Positions 44,746 to 60,086 of a stretch of DNA of 64,000 bases are shown here, in pieces. The stretch comes from Neoroseomonas soli. GTDB taxonomy: Bacteria > Pseudomonadota > Alphaproteobacteria > Acetobacterales > Acetobacteraceae. The notes under the pieces were generated by a model, which was not told the DNA's origin, did no database searches, and saw nothing but the letters and a program-made list of their open reading frames with translations. Where the stretch lies: the NCBI RefSeq assembly GCF_018129065.1, contig NZ_JAAEDM010000002.1, positions 1 to 64,000 of the forward strand, written 5' to 3'. The stretch's first letter is position 1. Each line of letters opens with the position of its first letter. A program made the translations under genes and the position numbers.

Positions 44746-44791
44746 GGGTGGGTTATAGCGGCGCGCCCTCGGCGCCACACTACCCTCAGCC

Positions 44792-44920
44792 GCGCCGAAA
44801 CCGTCGCTCGCGCGTCCGGCGCCACATCCCCGGTGCGCCGAAACCGCCGTTCGCGCTTCCGGCGCGCACCCCTGCTCGCGCCGAAACCGCCCGCGCGCCC
44901 GGCGCGAAACCGCCGCCCGC
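44792..44920. repeat. 43-bp direct tandem repeat, about three copies
   Basis: Units start GCGCCGAAACCG at 44792, 44835 and 44878 (period exactly 43). They share the form GCGCCGAAACCGnCG...TCGCGCnTCCGGCGC. The third is shortened and degenerates into GCGCGAAACCGCCG. Non-coding, between the dehydrogenase and crotonase genes. Confidence 0.75.
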
Positions 44921-44977
44921 GGCGCGGGACCCCGGAGCGCGGCGGCAACCCCGCCGGGCTACGCCGGCCAGGCGTGT

Positions 44978-55420: not shown

Positions 55421-56233
55421 TCACACCTTCCCGGCGTAGGACTTCGCCATGCCTTCACCGGGATCCGCCTGCGGCCCATAGGGCATGATCGGGTAGCGCA
55501 GCCCGGCCTTGGACAGGCCGAGCAGGCCCTCGACGGCGATGGCGAGATCGGCCGGCGGCAATGCCATCAGCATCTCGTCATCCGCGACGCCGCCGTAGCG
55601 CCGTTCCGCATAGCAGGGGATGGAGAGCGACGGCGCGCGGTCGCGCAGCGCGCGGCCCCAGGAATCGGCGCAGGCGCTCTCCCCCGTCACGGAGAATTCG
55701 AAGCGCTTGTAGGTCTTCCACTGCAGCCCGTTGATGAACAGGATCATCTGCGCGGGGTTCGCGTAGAAGAGGCAGATGTCCGGCGGGTCGAGCCGGGCGC
55801 TGCGCAGCGGGGAAACCGCCAGGCCCGCATAGCGCGGCGGCACGCGCGGCATTTCCGCCTGGTGCTTGCGCGCGGCCTCGCGGTTCTCGAACCACACGCC
55901 TTCGAACTTGCGGCCGGAGAGGTAAAGCTCGGAGGGCTCGTTGAGCCCGATCACGCCGCCGCAATTGGAGAAGCCCGGCACGTTCGCGGTGGTGATGCCC
56001 ATGGTGAAGCCGGCGATGCGGGCCTGGGTCACCAGCTGGCAGGTGGAGAAGGTCTTGCCTTCCGTGGGGCGGCGCAGGCCGGGGACCTTGGCCATCTCGG
56101 CCTCGTCGGCGAACAGCTTCATGCCGATCGGCAGGGTGCGCAGGCGAAGCAGTTCGGTGAGCTGGCGCGCGAGCTCGGCGATCTGCTTCGCATCGAGCGG
56201 CGGCGTCTCCGCCATCGGCGGGGCATCGGTCAT
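55421..56233 (-). CDS. DUF169 family protein
   Basis: 270 residues. The start of the domain (AELARQLTELLRLRTLPIGM, KLFADEAEM) and the cysteine-bearing motifs FSTCQLVTQAR, PGFSNCGGVIGL, TGESACADSWG and SIPCYAERRYGG are typical of DUF169, a family without an established role. The four conserved cysteines could bind a metal or Fe-S cluster. It is third in a minus-strand group behind a DUF6065 gene (104 bp gap) and a tandem-repeat protein gene. Confidence 0.8.
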   Translation of the reverse strand: MTDAPPMAETPPLDAKQIAELARQLTELLRLRTLPIGMKLFADEAEMAKVPGLRRPTEGKTFSTCQLVTQARIAGFTMGITTANVPGFSNCGGVIGLNEPSELYLSGRKFEGVWFENREAARKHQAEMPRVPPRYAGLAVSPLRSARLDPPDICLFYANPAQMILFINGLQWKTYKRFEFSVTGESACADSWGRALRDRAPSLSIPCYAERRYGGVADDEMLMALPPADLAIAVEGLLGLSKAGLRYPIMPYGPQADPGEGMAKSYAGKV

Positions 56234-56337
56234 GGGCGGTTCCTCCTCGTCCCGCGGATGATGCGACGCGGAGGAGGAAACGGCAAAAACCGCCCGGCCG
56301 TCGCGGGCGGGCGGCGTTCATCGGGCTGAGGAAGGCG

Positions 56338-57150
56338 TCAGCCCGACGTCGCGGCCTCGCGTGCCGCGGCCATGGCGGCGAAGGGGCAGCCGGCGGCGCG
56401 GCGCTGGCGGCGGACCTCGGCGGCGTAGCGTCCGGGCTGGTGTTCCTCGGCGCTGGCGGGGATGACGACGCTCTCGCGATAGGCATCCCACTCGGCGTCG
56501 CCCCACTGGGTGAAGGCGTCCGTCACCGTCGAGGCATTCATCACCGCATCGGCATAGGCGAATTGCGGGATCGGCTGCACCTGCAGGAGGGGGCGGAGCT
56601 GGTTGATCTCGACCGGGGTGTCGGTGCGCGTCAGCCGGATATTGGTGAAGAGCGGGCCGAACCACTTGTCGAATTCGACGATGCCTTCGAACTGCTCGTA
56701 GGCGGCGTGCTTCGGCAGGTTTGCGGGGGAACGGGTCAGCAGCGACCAGCCTGGCGCCGTGCGCACGAAGAGCCCGGTCCACATCTGCACCACGCCCGCT
56801 TCGGGCAGGCCGGTCAGGAAGGGCGGGGAGAAGCCGCGGATGTCTTCCGGCACGGCCTCGTCAAAGGTGTCTCGGAAATAGGGGTACTGCGCCGCGCCGA
56901 GGCCGAGGGGCATCCATTCCCCCTCGAGCGCCTCGCAGGTCCACAGCACTTCATGCCCGTCCCACATGAGTGTCAGGTCGAGCGGGGCGGTGATGTGCCA
57001 GCCGAAGCCGGCAGCGGTGGTGACGGCATCGCAGTAGCGGAAGGCCCGCGTTGGCAGCCCGCCGAGACCCGAGCGATCGGCGCGCTCCGGCGCCGGTATG
57101 CCGGGGATCAGGCGGTGGAAGCTGACGATCGGAGTGCGGTCCGGGCCCAT
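56338..57150 (-). CDS. DUF6065-like protein of unknown function
   Basis: 270 residues, soluble, no signal peptide. Recognisable stretches: PTRAFRYCDAVTTAAGFGWH, PLDLTLMWDGHEVLW, VVQMWTGLFVRTAPGWSLLT and YEQFEGIVEFDKWFGPLFTN. These match my recollection of the DUF6065 family; no function is known to me. AGGA nine bases before the ATG at 57150 supports this start; the reading frame runs on upstream through the repeat array only because the array is open in nearly all frames. It follows the repeat-protein gene by 79 bp, which suggests joint expression. Confidence 0.65.
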   Translation of the reverse strand: MGPDRTPIVSFHRLIPGIPAPERADRSGLGGLPTRAFRYCDAVTTAAGFGWHITAPLDLTLMWDGHEVLWTCEALEGEWMPLGLGAAQYPYFRDTFDEAVPEDIRGFSPPFLTGLPEAGVVQMWTGLFVRTAPGWSLLTRSPANLPKHAAYEQFEGIVEFDKWFGPLFTNIRLTRTDTPVEINQLRPLLQVQPIPQFAYADAVMNASTVTDAFTQWGDAEWDAYRESVVIPASAEEHQPGRYAAEVRRQRRAAGCPFAAMAAAREAATSG

Positions 57151-57229
57151 GGCGGTGCGTCCTGGAGGGTGCGCGGATATCCACGCGACAGGGCGGGGGA
57201 TCCGCGGTGCGGTCCCCCGGCCCCGAGGA

Positions 57230-57643
57230 TCAGGCGCGACGGAGGCCGGCGCCGATGCGGACGGCGCCCTTGTCGGCGACGGCGGCCTTGGGGGTGCGGA
57301 GGCCGGCACCGGTGCGGACGGCGCCCTTGTCGGCGACGGCGGCCTTCGGGGTGCGGAGGCCTGCACCGATGCGGACGGCGCCCTTGTCGGCGACGGCGGC
57401 ATTGGGGGTGCGGAGGCCGGCACCGATGCGGACGGCGCCCTTGTCGGCAACGGCGGCATTGGGGGTGCGGAGGCCGGCGCCGATGCGGACGGCGCCCTTG
57501 TCGGCGACGGCGGCCTTGGGGGTGCGGAGGCCTGCACCGATGCGGACGGTGCCCTTGTCGGCGACGGCGGCCTTGGGGGTGCGGAGGCCTGCACCGATGC
57601 GGATGATGCCCTTGTCGGCGACGGCGGCGAGGATCTTGGTCAT
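57230..57643 (-). CDS. Tandem 19-residue-repeat protein, seven units
   Basis: 137 residues made almost entirely of repeats. After MTKILAAVADKG IIRIGAGLRTP come six units of the form KAAVADKGAVRIGAGLRTP, with K/N, A/T and I/T exchanges; the last ends GLRRA. Each unit is basic (K, R, R, D) and its central part alternates polar and apolar residues, so a beta-solenoid or self-assembling fibre, or a precursor of repeated small peptides, is possible. GGAG seven bases before the ATG makes this the best-supported of several open frames. There is no signal peptide and no cysteine. I do not recognise the family. It diverges from a SARP-like regulator. Confidence 0.6.
   Translation of the reverse strand: MTKILAAVADKGIIRIGAGLRTPKAAVADKGTVRIGAGLRTPKAAVADKGAVRIGAGLRTPNAAVADKGAVRIGAGLRTPNAAVADKGAVRIGAGLRTPKAAVADKGAVRTGAGLRTPKAAVADKGAVRIGAGLRRA
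57240..57640. repeat. 57-bp tandem DNA repeat array (about seven units)
   Basis: The unit recurs every 57 bp (for example GTGCGGAGGCC at 57294, 57351 and 57408). Differences between units are few, so the array expanded recently or is kept uniform by conversion. As 57 is a multiple of three and the unit lacks stops, at least five reading frames stay open across it. Confidence 0.9.
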
Positions 57644-58076
57644 GCGGTTTCTCCGGCTTGGAGGTCGCTGGCAACGGGGCCAGTAGCCCGACCTTGGCCA
57701 AGCAGGGCGGCACGCACAAGCAAACATTCCTACTTGTTTAAAACTATCTTCCTAGTATTATGATCAATAGGAAAAGCATCAGTTCTTCAATCCAGCGAGA
57801 CGCTTAAAGACGAGGACCATGACTCACCTGAACGCTAGATTCATGCAGTTGTGACGTCTCTCACGCGAAATTAACGGAGGAAATCACAACTTATTGGAGA
57901 ATACCTCCGGGGGTTGATCGCGAATAAGGTTCCACTCGCTTTGCGTGCGAGAATTCACCGCGGAGCCGTACCGATCAAGCATAAGGTAAATCATCACGAT
58001 ACCGGGCCCGCCGGGGTCAACGAGTCTCAGGGCGCGGTTTGGTGAAGCAGGCCGGACGCGTTATGAGAGCGTGAGG
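57644..58076. promoter_or_regulatory. Divergent AT-rich control region
   Basis: A 433-bp region with no supported gene between the divergent repeat-protein and SARP-like regulator genes. The part at 57720-57990 is much richer in A+T than the rest of the window. It holds runs such as TTTAAAACTATC, CTAGTATTATGATCAATAGG and an FNR-like sequence TTGATCGCGAATAA (57914-57927, 8 of 10 fixed bases). Promoters for both genes are expected here, but I could not fix -35/-10 pairs. Confidence 0.5.
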
Positions 58077-60086
58077 ATGTCAGATCTCATTATCCGCTCC
58101 GGACAGGACGACAGACCTCCGCTGGAGGGAATCGTCCCCCCCGTCGTCATCGCCGGGCCGCCTGCGATCAGGGTGCGGATCACCATGCTCGGCAGGATGG
58201 ATGTCCGCGCCGTGACGGGTGAGCCCCTGCTGCCGCGATCCCGCAAGACGCGCGCTGTGTTGGCGGTCCTCGCGATCGAATCGCCCTCCGTGGTGTCCCG
58301 CCAGCGGCTGGCCGACCTGCTCTGGAGCCGCCGCGGCGAGGAACAGGCCCGCGGCTCTCTCCGCCAGGCGCTGCACGAGTTGCAGGAGGCGCTCGGTGAG
58401 TGGGGCCGCGGCCTTCTGATAGCGACCCGCGAGACGGTGGCCTTGGACCTGGATGGCGTCTGGTCCGATGCACGCGAACTGCCGCTGATGGCGCGCGAGC
58501 GGGCCGAGGCGCTGAACCTGCTGCAGGCGGAGCTGCTCTCGGACCTCGACGGCCTCGATGCCGCCTTCGACACCTGGTTGCTCGACCAGCGCCGCCGGTT
58601 GCGCGAAGCGGCGCTCGATGCCGCCACCGCCCGCCTCGCCGCGGCAGCCACGGCCGAGGCCCGCGCGTTGGAGGCGCGCCGCGTGCTCGCCATCGACGCC
58701 GCGCAGGAACCCGTGTGGCGCATCCTGATCCGCGCCGAAGCCGAACGCGGCGACCGCGGCGCGGCCTTCGCCGCCTGGGAGGAGTGCCGCCGCGTCTTCG
58801 CCGAGCGCTTCCGCAGCGCGCCGTCGCCGGAAACCGCGGCGCTCGCGGATTCGCTGCGCGGCGAGGTCCCCGCCCTGCCGCCTGTCGCGGTTTCGCGCAG
58901 CGCGGTGCGTGGGGCGCGGCTCGGCGTCATGCCCTTCCGCGTGCTTGGAGGGGAGGCCGATGCGGAAGTCTCGCTGGGCCTCGCCGGAGAGATCACCGCG
59001 GCCCTCGCGCGGTTCCGCTGGCTCGTGCTGGTGGACAGTTCCTCGCTCGCCGCCGCCGTGCGGCAGGAAGGCGGGGGCGGGAGCCTCGAGCTCGACTTCA
59101 CCCTCTCGGGCACCGTGCAGCGCGCCGGGAACCGGGTGCGCGTCACGCTCCGCCTGACCGACCACCGCACGCCCGAAGCCGTGGTCTGGGCCGAGCGCTT
59201 CGATCGCGACGCCAACGACATCCTGGCCCTTCAGGACGAGATCGCCGCCGAGGTGGTGGCTCGCGTCGACCCCGAGATCCTGCTGATCGAGGCGAACCGC
59301 GCCGCTGCGCGGCCTCCGGTCCATGCGACCGCCTACGACCTGCTGCTGCGCGCGATCCCGGCCATCTACCGCCTCGACCGGCAGTCCTACGAGCTCGCCG
59401 GCAGCATGCTGGCCGAGGCGACGCGGCTCGAGCCGGATTACGCGCCGGCCTATGCCTGGCATGCCTACTGGCACCTGTTCCTGGTCGGGCAGGGCTGGGC
59501 GCAGAACGATGCCGACGTGCTGGCCAAGAGCGAGGCGCTCGCCTCGCGCGCCGTGGCGCTCGATCCTTCGGATGCGCAGGCGCTCGCCATCCTCGGCCAT
59601 GTGCGCGCCTTCCTCCACCACCGGGTTGCCGAGGCGGTCACGCTCTACGAACGGGCGCTCGCGCTGAACCCCAACCTGCCGATGGCCTGGGTCTTCTCGG
59701 CCCTCGCGCTGTCCTACCGCGGGGACCACGCCGAGGCCCTGCGGCGGTGGGAACGCTACAAGCGCCTGGCACCGCTGCATCCGCACGCCTTCTTCTTCGA
59801 TGCGGCGCAGCTGGTGCCGCTGCTGCTCCTGCGCCGCTACGAGGAGGTGGACGCGGCCGCGCGGCAGGTGACCGCCCTCCATTCGGGCTTCACCTTCCCC
59901 TACAAGGCCTGGTTGTCCGCGCTCGGGCACATGGGGCGGCCGCAGGAGGCGGCGGAGGTGAGGGCCCGGCTTTCCGCCATGGAGCCGGATTTCGACCTCA
60001 CCAAGGCGCGTGAGCGGGCGCCCATGCAGGCCGCGGTCGATCTCGACCACTACCTCGCCGGGCTGCGCAAGGCCGGCATCACCTGA
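58077..60086 (+). CDS. SARP/BTAD-like transcriptional regulator with TolB-like and TPR domains
   Basis: 669 residues. In order: winged helix of the SARP type (about 33-105; SRKTRAVLAVLAIESPSVVS, QRLADLLWSRRGEEQARGSL), BTAD helices (about 110-265), a TolB/FlgO-like domain (about 283-410; LGVMPFRVLGGEADAEVSLG) and a TPR region (about 430-640). Such proteins activate nearby gene groups, which here would be the divergent repeat-protein/DUF6065/DUF169 genes. GAGAG seven bases before the ATG at 58077 favours it over the GTG at 58071. The last codons and stop (GIT-stop) lie inside a truncated family A repeat, so the original C-terminus was probably replaced. Confidence 0.82.
   Translation: MSDLIIRSGQDDRPPLEGIVPPVVIAGPPAIRVRITMLGRMDVRAVTGEPLLPRSRKTRAVLAVLAIESPSVVSRQRLADLLWSRRGEEQARGSLRQALHELQEALGEWGRGLLIATRETVALDLDGVWSDARELPLMARERAEALNLLQAELLSDLDGLDAAFDTWLLDQRRRLREAALDAATARLAAAATAEARALEARRVLAIDAAQEPVWRILIRAEAERGDRGAAFAAWEECRRVFAERFRSAPSPETAALADSLRGEVPALPPVAVSRSAVRGARLGVMPFRVLGGEADAEVSLGLAGEITAALARFRWLVLVDSSSLAAAVRQEGGGGSLELDFTLSGTVQRAGNRVRVTLRLTDHRTPEAVVWAERFDRDANDILALQDEIAAEVVARVDPEILLIEANRAAARPPVHATAYDLLLRAIPAIYRLDRQSYELAGSMLAEATRLEPDYAPAYAWHAYWHLFLVGQGWAQNDADVLAKSEALASRAVALDPSDAQALAILGHVRAFLHHRVAEAVTLYERALALNPNLPMAWVFSALALSYRGDHAEALRRWERYKRLAPLHPHAFFFDAAQLVPLLLLRRYEEVDAAARQVTALHSGFTFPYKAWLSALGHMGRPQEAAEVRARLSAMEPDFDLTKARERAPMQAAVDLDHYLAGLRKAGIT

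Follow-up and report, generated by a model that had tools for sequence, protein, structure and literature searches.

The window analyzed here is a 64,000-nucleotide stretch of Neoroseomonas soli (NZ_JAAEDM010000002.1, positions 1-64,000 of the forward strand). It carries a conserved gene pair, a tandem-repeat peptide gene followed by a gene from a divergent branch of the DUF6065 family, whose product we refer to as the partner. This pair is the core of a locus that also includes a SARP-type regulator gene and a DUF169 gene. We see about an even chance that the two genes form a system in which the peptide is a multi-copy substrate and each of its units is recognized by the partner.

Pairing of the repeat peptide and its DUF6065-like partner

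Our genus survey covered 59 genomes of relatives, 35 of them from the genus, with the window's own genome included. The repeat protein occurs in 16 of the 59 genomes, all from the genus, and in 16/16 a DUF6065-like gene (76-100% identity) lies directly downstream. Wherever the contig is long enough, the order is regulator, repeat, DUF6065, and DUF169; a contig break within the array puts the regulator on the other piece in two genomes (G016 and G018). The repeat open reading frame (ORF) is more than a chance frame, since our two-unit pattern occurs only once in the 64-kb window and the frame is open in 15 further genomes of the genus. Much of the genus has a second DUF6065-like gene (~50% identical), also preceded by a unit-bearing ORF, and a unit ORF lies upstream of 39 of the 40 same-genus DUF6065-like genes scanned. 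The 40th, a clade C gene (L083, 8037-8813; 37% identity), follows a different repeat, KQTRQFGDGG...LKAHLAKASAKTA, with ~25 residues per unit. In all nine genomes with both paralogs, GAGxR units stand with the clade A partner and GGLSP units with the clade B partner (9/9), which indicates that unit type follows the partner, not the species. This co-occurrence across genomes bears out the link between the repeat ORF and the DUF6065-like gene that the preliminary description of the window had drawn.

The pairing extends well beyond the genus. Using alignment A1, we scanned a single genome for each GTDB species and kept the best 80 of 194 relatives; these 80 loci are mostly from Acetobacteraceae and Rhodospirillales, along with two Sneathiella and a few metagenome-assembled genomes labeled as other groups. 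A unit-bearing ORF lies directly upstream of the partner gene in 75 of 77 evaluable loci, 73 (of the 80) being found by pattern and two (L171 and L174) by eye. Three loci were set aside with contigs ending 27, 64, and 158 nucleotides (nt) upstream (L144, L162, and L177), and L171 was kept with only 157 nt. The stricter two-unit pattern was found upstream in 59 of the 80 loci, as against one occurrence elsewhere in the 691,925 bases (both strands) of these loci. Listed neighbors in six loci differ apart from the pair, and when the ORFs of the 80 loci were clustered, the regulator alone recurred widely.

In a class-wide draw, we searched 289 genomes with the A2 profile and obtained a clean split: five genomes, the window's own included, matched at E <1e-111, whereas 26 matched at E 5.4e-12 or weaker. 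All four other genomes of the strong group have units upstream. A phylum-wide draw of 398 genomes returned the paired branch (E up to 1e-30) in the window's own genome only. Beside canonical DUF6065 genes, we found no unit peptide in any of 29 loci (~1.5 kb flanks). A scan of these loci for repeat content gave one Pro-Thr low-complexity ORF (L094) and two overlapping frames, none with a unit, and the largest cluster of flanking ORFs held only four ORFs from three of the 29 loci. One canonical DUF6065 gene (L098, 694-2217) is fused to a second domain, which we take to resemble SapC.

IMG/VR yielded 15 contigs with the paired branch. Among the ten with at least 150 nt upstream, seven carry one or two units, and the remaining three (L255, L258, and L265) carry none. 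On the phage-like contig L268 (2840-3699), a peptide of 20-25 residues with two GGTNR units is followed by a terminator-like hairpin and T run (by eye) and then by a DUF6065-like gene (35% identity); nearby genes appear lysozyme-like and integrase-like by eye. By tblastn, phage records matched neither the L268 protein (E up to 0.01) nor the window's DUF6065-like protein (E up to 0.1). With canonical DUF6065 as the query, three haloarchaeal virus records matched weakly, e.g., MW450817.2 (27141-27827) and MZ334513.1 (26733-27116), at 24-26% identity.

The repeat unit and residue X

Across loci, the unit approximates D-x-G/S-x-V-R-[LIMVFT]-G-[AGNSM]... and takes two main forms, VRxGAG-X-R and VRLGG-X-(A/S)P-x-L, where X is the residue after the Gly turn. 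Counted arrays hold 1 to 18 units, 18 being the largest counted; some arrays are masked or cut by contig ends. By our reading, eight of the 80 loci carry just one unit. Linker length differs among units and among species, and the first unit follows after only a short stretch in most precursors with a readable start.

Our unit patterns were modeled on the first arrays found, with D or E, V/I, R, and Gly positions fixed and X free. The fixed positions cannot vary in the analyses of codons, of the fixation index (Fst), or of the ratio of nonsynonymous to synonymous differences (pN/pS). This ratio, in which pN is thus held down, is 0.34 among the window's own units and 0.64 between loci. Within arrays, six of 12 (the window, L115, L120, L123, L124, and L127) have values of 0.20 to 0.34 and three (L116, L121, and L122) values of 0.49 to 0.85.

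X differs between arrays and is uniform within 64 of the 74 arrays with two or more units. Uniformity was read by pattern in 62; the other two are L123, where the pattern slips at the last unit (18/18 Cys), and L165, whose third unit is masked. This count took every array with at least two units, whereas the Fst sets comprised 15 clade A arrays and 18 chosen GG arrays. In clade A, the mean diversity of X is 0.01 within arrays versus 0.78 in total (Fst 0.99), with no other free position exceeding Fst 0.54. In the GG arrays, the corresponding values are 0.04 and 0.75 (Fst 0.94), and the residue preceding the Gly pair is also high (Fst 0.97). X stays uniform where its codons differ inside an array (GTG/GTC in L127, GTC/GTG in L168, TTT/TTC in L143, and TAT/TAC in L178), so selection works at the level of the protein, not through homogenization of the DNA alone.

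Predicted fold of the partner

All 56 members of alignment A2 match PF19541 (E up to 0.1). The AlphaFold2 model of the partner, built with 56 sequences, has a mean predicted local distance difference test score (pLDDT) of 83.5 and a predicted template modeling score (pTM) of 0.72. Searching the PDB with Foldseek returned dUTPases in all 50 listed of 463 matches (best E 1.3e-4). In the listed rows, the template modeling (TM) score is mostly 0.6 to 0.75 by target and ~0.36 by query, the latter placing part of the partner outside the dUTPase fold. Against viral models, the top matches are uncharacterized Caudovirales proteins (best E 3.0e-8), and dUTPases first appear at rank 10. Based on the model, the partner is predicted to have a dUTPase-type beta-barrel, as a monomer.

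The likeness to dUTPases (PF00692) is one of predicted fold. The partner differs from them in its low TM score by query, in having no significant sequence relation and no Pfam dUTPase match, and in lacking a Gly-rich motif 5 arm of its own at the C terminus (by eye). By inspection, the catalytic motif-3 Asp was not found, with Glu159 aligned nearby, and solved structures searched by sequence reached E 0.1 at best. To our knowledge, neither peptide chemistry nor catalytic activity is known for such a dUTPase-like partner.

Canonical DUF6065 (PF19541, e.g., in Caulobacter vibrioides) belongs to the same Pfam family, and 21 positions are conserved in both branches, including R130, T131, N144, E159, D161, and N170. 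It differs from the paired branch in the missing unit peptide and in many positions that are conserved in the paired branch but not in the canonical one. Residues conserved in the paired branch only, among them R23, R35, R38, W124, R140, E155, W163, and R172, are candidates for peptide contact.

The SARP-type regulator and candidate control elements

A relative of the regulator is found in 52 of the 80 loci, at varied positions. In eight of the 52, the best segment spans the C-terminal part only, and contigs are cut in many of the remaining 28 loci. The preliminary labels of this protein stand in part: BTAD is above its cut-off (PF03704, 31 bits; cut-off 22.1), TPR matches all fall under their cut-offs, and TolB has no Pfam match. 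The OmpR-type winged helix (Trans_reg_C) scores 21.5 bits against a cut-off of 26.2.

We searched for CGTTAA-like heptad pairs 11 bp apart in the window and in 29 of the 35 loci with an upstream regulator on the opposite strand. A pair with at most two mismatches occurs in 22 of these 30 regions, compared with 1.0 in shuffles and 0 to 7 at other periods; the six remaining regions, run without shuffles, add four more (26/36 in sum). The motif was chosen from Neoroseomonas, and outside that clade it was found in 15 of 23 regions, some on the opposite strand. A report on PimR (PMC3367932) describes SARP operators as heptad direct repeats with 4-bp spacers. The BTAD domain and the intergenic heptads with 4-bp spacers resemble this arrangement, whereas the PimR-type heptad given there is CGGCAAG (PMC3367932) and ours, a candidate operator, is CGTTAA-like. 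The SARP-type regulator probably governs the peptide-partner pair, as its linkage and the SARP-style repeats upstream of the peptide gene suggest, in keeping with the control of adjacent genes proposed earlier.

The gap between the peptide and partner genes has a fold z below -2 in 38 of 74 loci (mean -2.02), and its stem shows weak covariation in clade A. In the leader of the peptide gene, the palindrome block ACAAGTAGGAATGTTTRCTTGT is conserved in 13 aligned loci with some changes, and a TTCCTAT...GGAA pair precedes it.

Possible functions of the pair

A view of the peptide as substrate and of the partner as its enzyme (or carrier) fits best because the pair is constant, selection acts at the level of the unit, single-unit relatives exist, and the stem-loop possibly favors the peptide. 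Here, the first gene would encode a disordered polypeptide with one to many copies of a core resembling D-x-G-x-V-R-L-G-(A)G-X, and the second a dUTPase-fold DUF6065-like protein that would recognize every unit. The units would be the substrate, as in a multi-copy precursor, and the partner most likely a maturation enzyme or a dedicated carrier, with a SARP-type regulator often beside the pair. With many units on each polypeptide and a stem-loop separating the two genes, the substrate would be in excess of the enzyme, and an array with one shared X, as in most cases, would yield one main product. A bolder and only tentative version is that a dUTPase fold has become a unit-by-unit peptide recognizer, which would define a new ribosomal peptide class of Alphaproteobacteria and some phages; most arrays would give one product set by the lineage-specific X, and the cognate SARP may sense that product.

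Several observations weigh against the substrate-and-enzyme view. In two Elioraea loci (L179 and L189), the 600 nt upstream contain no unit ORF, and the pattern detects none anywhere in the locus; we take the peptide gene to be lost or moved there. None of the precursors read has a long leader. Three of the 12 arrays (L114, L119, and L125) have pN/pS >1, with pS of 0.05 to 0.07 each. X is mixed in 10 of 74 arrays, one from clade A (L124, one Tyr of 15) and nine from clade B in related same-genus genomes (L042, L043, L045, L047, L048, L049, L190, L191, and L193; L045, for example, has Leu/Asn/Cys), so one product per array is a tendency and not a rule. The top covariation of X with columns of DUF6065 is 0.70, with the null 95% at 0.85 (n = 16). 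No known peptide-modifying enzyme, protease, or transporter recurs in the ORF clusters or the six gene lists, which do not amount to a systematic domain scan. When the partner is compared by hhalign to dUTPases of the class, the match falls short of significance (E 0.53), though the alignment is in the register expected for motifs 2 to 4. Finally, AlphaFold modeling of a natural read-through of peptide and partner (L122, 356 residues) left the repeats disordered and undocked at a pLDDT of ~35, which leaves unit binding without support from prediction; with its thin alignment, this model is weak evidence on repeat disorder.

The units might instead each bind one dUTPase-fold barrel and cross-link the partner into a network or body, with no modification or cutting. 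This multivalent scaffold is an unlikely alternative. Known dUTPases are mostly trimers, and EPYC1 of algal pyrenoids is a tandem-repeat linker protein, likewise a disordered polypeptide with repeated binding motifs, although single-unit versions set our peptide apart. Predicted disorder, a copy number that varies up to the 18 units counted, and a motif uniform array-wide in most arrays would all suit a scaffold, but the single-unit peptides of eight of the 80 loci cannot cross-link, and the phage-like L268 peptide is only 20-25 residues long with two units. The preliminary description had also considered a self-assembling filament. We rejected this, along with a beta-solenoid, on the predicted disorder of the repeats in the read-through model (weak, given its alignment), the variable linker length, and the single-unit versions.

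Quite unlikely, in our estimate, is that the units are released as a lineage-specific peptide signal, that the linked SARP-type regulator senses it through its TPR part, and that the partner serves in maturation. The frequent linkage of the regulator, the SARP-style repeats upstream of the peptide gene, and an X that varies between arrays and is mostly uniform within them, as expected for a recognition residue, are consistent with such a signal. However, 28 of 80 loci are without such a regulator (some on cut contigs), eight of the 52 relatives match in the C-terminal part only, and X is not uniform in every array. We saw no recurrent secretion signal or transporter, and covariation of X with regulator residues stays within the null (top 0.99, null 95% 1.05; n = 16).

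The predicted dUTPase fold of the partner raises another, distinctly improbable reading, in which the Gly-turn unit acts in trans as the Gly-rich C-terminal arm of a dUTPase and either closes a nucleotide site in the partner or blocks it. The sequence RGAGGFGSTG, at the C terminus of several dUTPases of the class, can be set beside the common unit VRLGGFAPTL, and the partner's Glu159 is aligned near the dUTPase motif-3 Asp. However, unit and arm resemble each other only over a short stretch and as judged by eye, the profile alignment is not significant, and no docking was predicted; specifically, motif 5-like docking of a unit into the partner was not seen in the read-through model. Lastly, that the repeat ORF and partner are mere neighbors linked by shared descent, as the syntenic flanking genes within Neoroseomonas could suggest, is barely credible and largely refuted by a pairing kept across genera, while listed neighbors change, and found in a phage-like contig as well.

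Relation to known systems

Multi-core precursors occur among ribosomally synthesized and post-translationally modified peptides (RiPPs). One report (PMC5934393) describes the microviridin precursor AMdnA, which has three cores, with the ATP-grasp enzyme AMdnC, and calls multi-core processing rare. As in that system (PMC5934393), several cores share one polypeptide and one partner. The enzyme and product of AMdnA/AMdnC are known and the cores number three, whereas our pair has a predicted dUTPase-fold partner, arrays reaching 18 units or more, and, in the precursors read, no long leader. A precursor gene beside its modifying enzyme is a RiPP feature; the adjacency of peptide and partner is seen here, and the modifying role of the partner is putative. 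The best reading works like a multi-copy peptide precursor, and we class the pair neither as a RiPP nor as a dUTPase because defining features of these classes are either putative here or were looked for and not found.

We found no literature on DUF6065 in the collection searched and, in the titles and abstract openings of the papers listed, no description of such a repeat-peptide/partner pair. For this branch of DUF6065, our analysis supplies a predicted fold, a specific partner, and a substrate open to testing. Should the partner modify the units, the pair would represent a new ribosomal peptide class, and we know of no dUTPase fold that acts on peptides; if it only binds them, the pair would be a new kind of repeat scaffold. 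An X common to the units of most arrays yet variable among lineages is in itself an unusual evolutionary signature.

Locus features and neighboring genes

The gene layout is as the preliminary description had it, with the four genes in place, a repeat protein of seven units, and a ribosome binding site. The repeat ORF starts with ATG, with GGAG seven bases upstream. Feature positions are collected in Table 1.

Table 1. Features of the peptide-partner locus in the window
Feature	Position	Strand	Description
DUF169 gene	55421..56233	-	Syntenic in Neoroseomonas-type clade only; probably no core part
DUF6065-like partner gene	56338..57150	-	270 aa; divergent PF19541 branch; predicted dUTPase fold
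G+C-rich stem-loop in gap between peptide and partner genes	57195..57218	-	Limits by eye; gap fold z -2.50 in window
Repeat peptide gene	57230..57643	-	137 aa; seven 19-aa units; consensus core A-D-K-G-x-V-R-I-G-A-G-L-R-T-P
57-bp tandem array within repeat peptide gene	57240..57628	-	Period 57, 6.8 copies, 94% matches, score 680 (Tandem Repeats Finder); seven units by reading
Imperfect palindrome ACAAGTAGGAATGTTTGCTTGT (block ACAAGTAGGAATGTTTRCTTGT) in leader of peptide gene	57716..57737	-	Conserved in relatives
Candidate SARP-style operator	57850..57876	-	Three degenerate heptads, CGTTAAT-TTCG-CGTGAGA-GA-CGTCACA; first two 11 bp apart
SARP/BTAD-type regulator gene, divergent	58071..60086	+	TPR-like C-terminal part; GTG start as listed

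The DUF6065-like protein matches PF19541 at E 6.1e-14 (52.5 bits, above the curated cut-off of 26.6), and the DUF169 protein matches PF02596 at E 2.1e-43. DUF169 had been included in the proposed joint system, but its presence in only 14 of the 80 loci, all of the Neoroseomonas-type clade, speaks against it as a core member. The top covariation of X with its columns is 0.62 (null 95% 0.66; n = 16).

None of the four locus proteins matched PADLOC-DB (anti-phage defense) at E up to 0.01, none of eight proteins given to NCBIfam scored above cut-off, and no known RNA family exceeded its gathering score between 55000 and 60500. The window contains a second tandem array at 44791-44921 (period 43, 3.1 copies, score 139).

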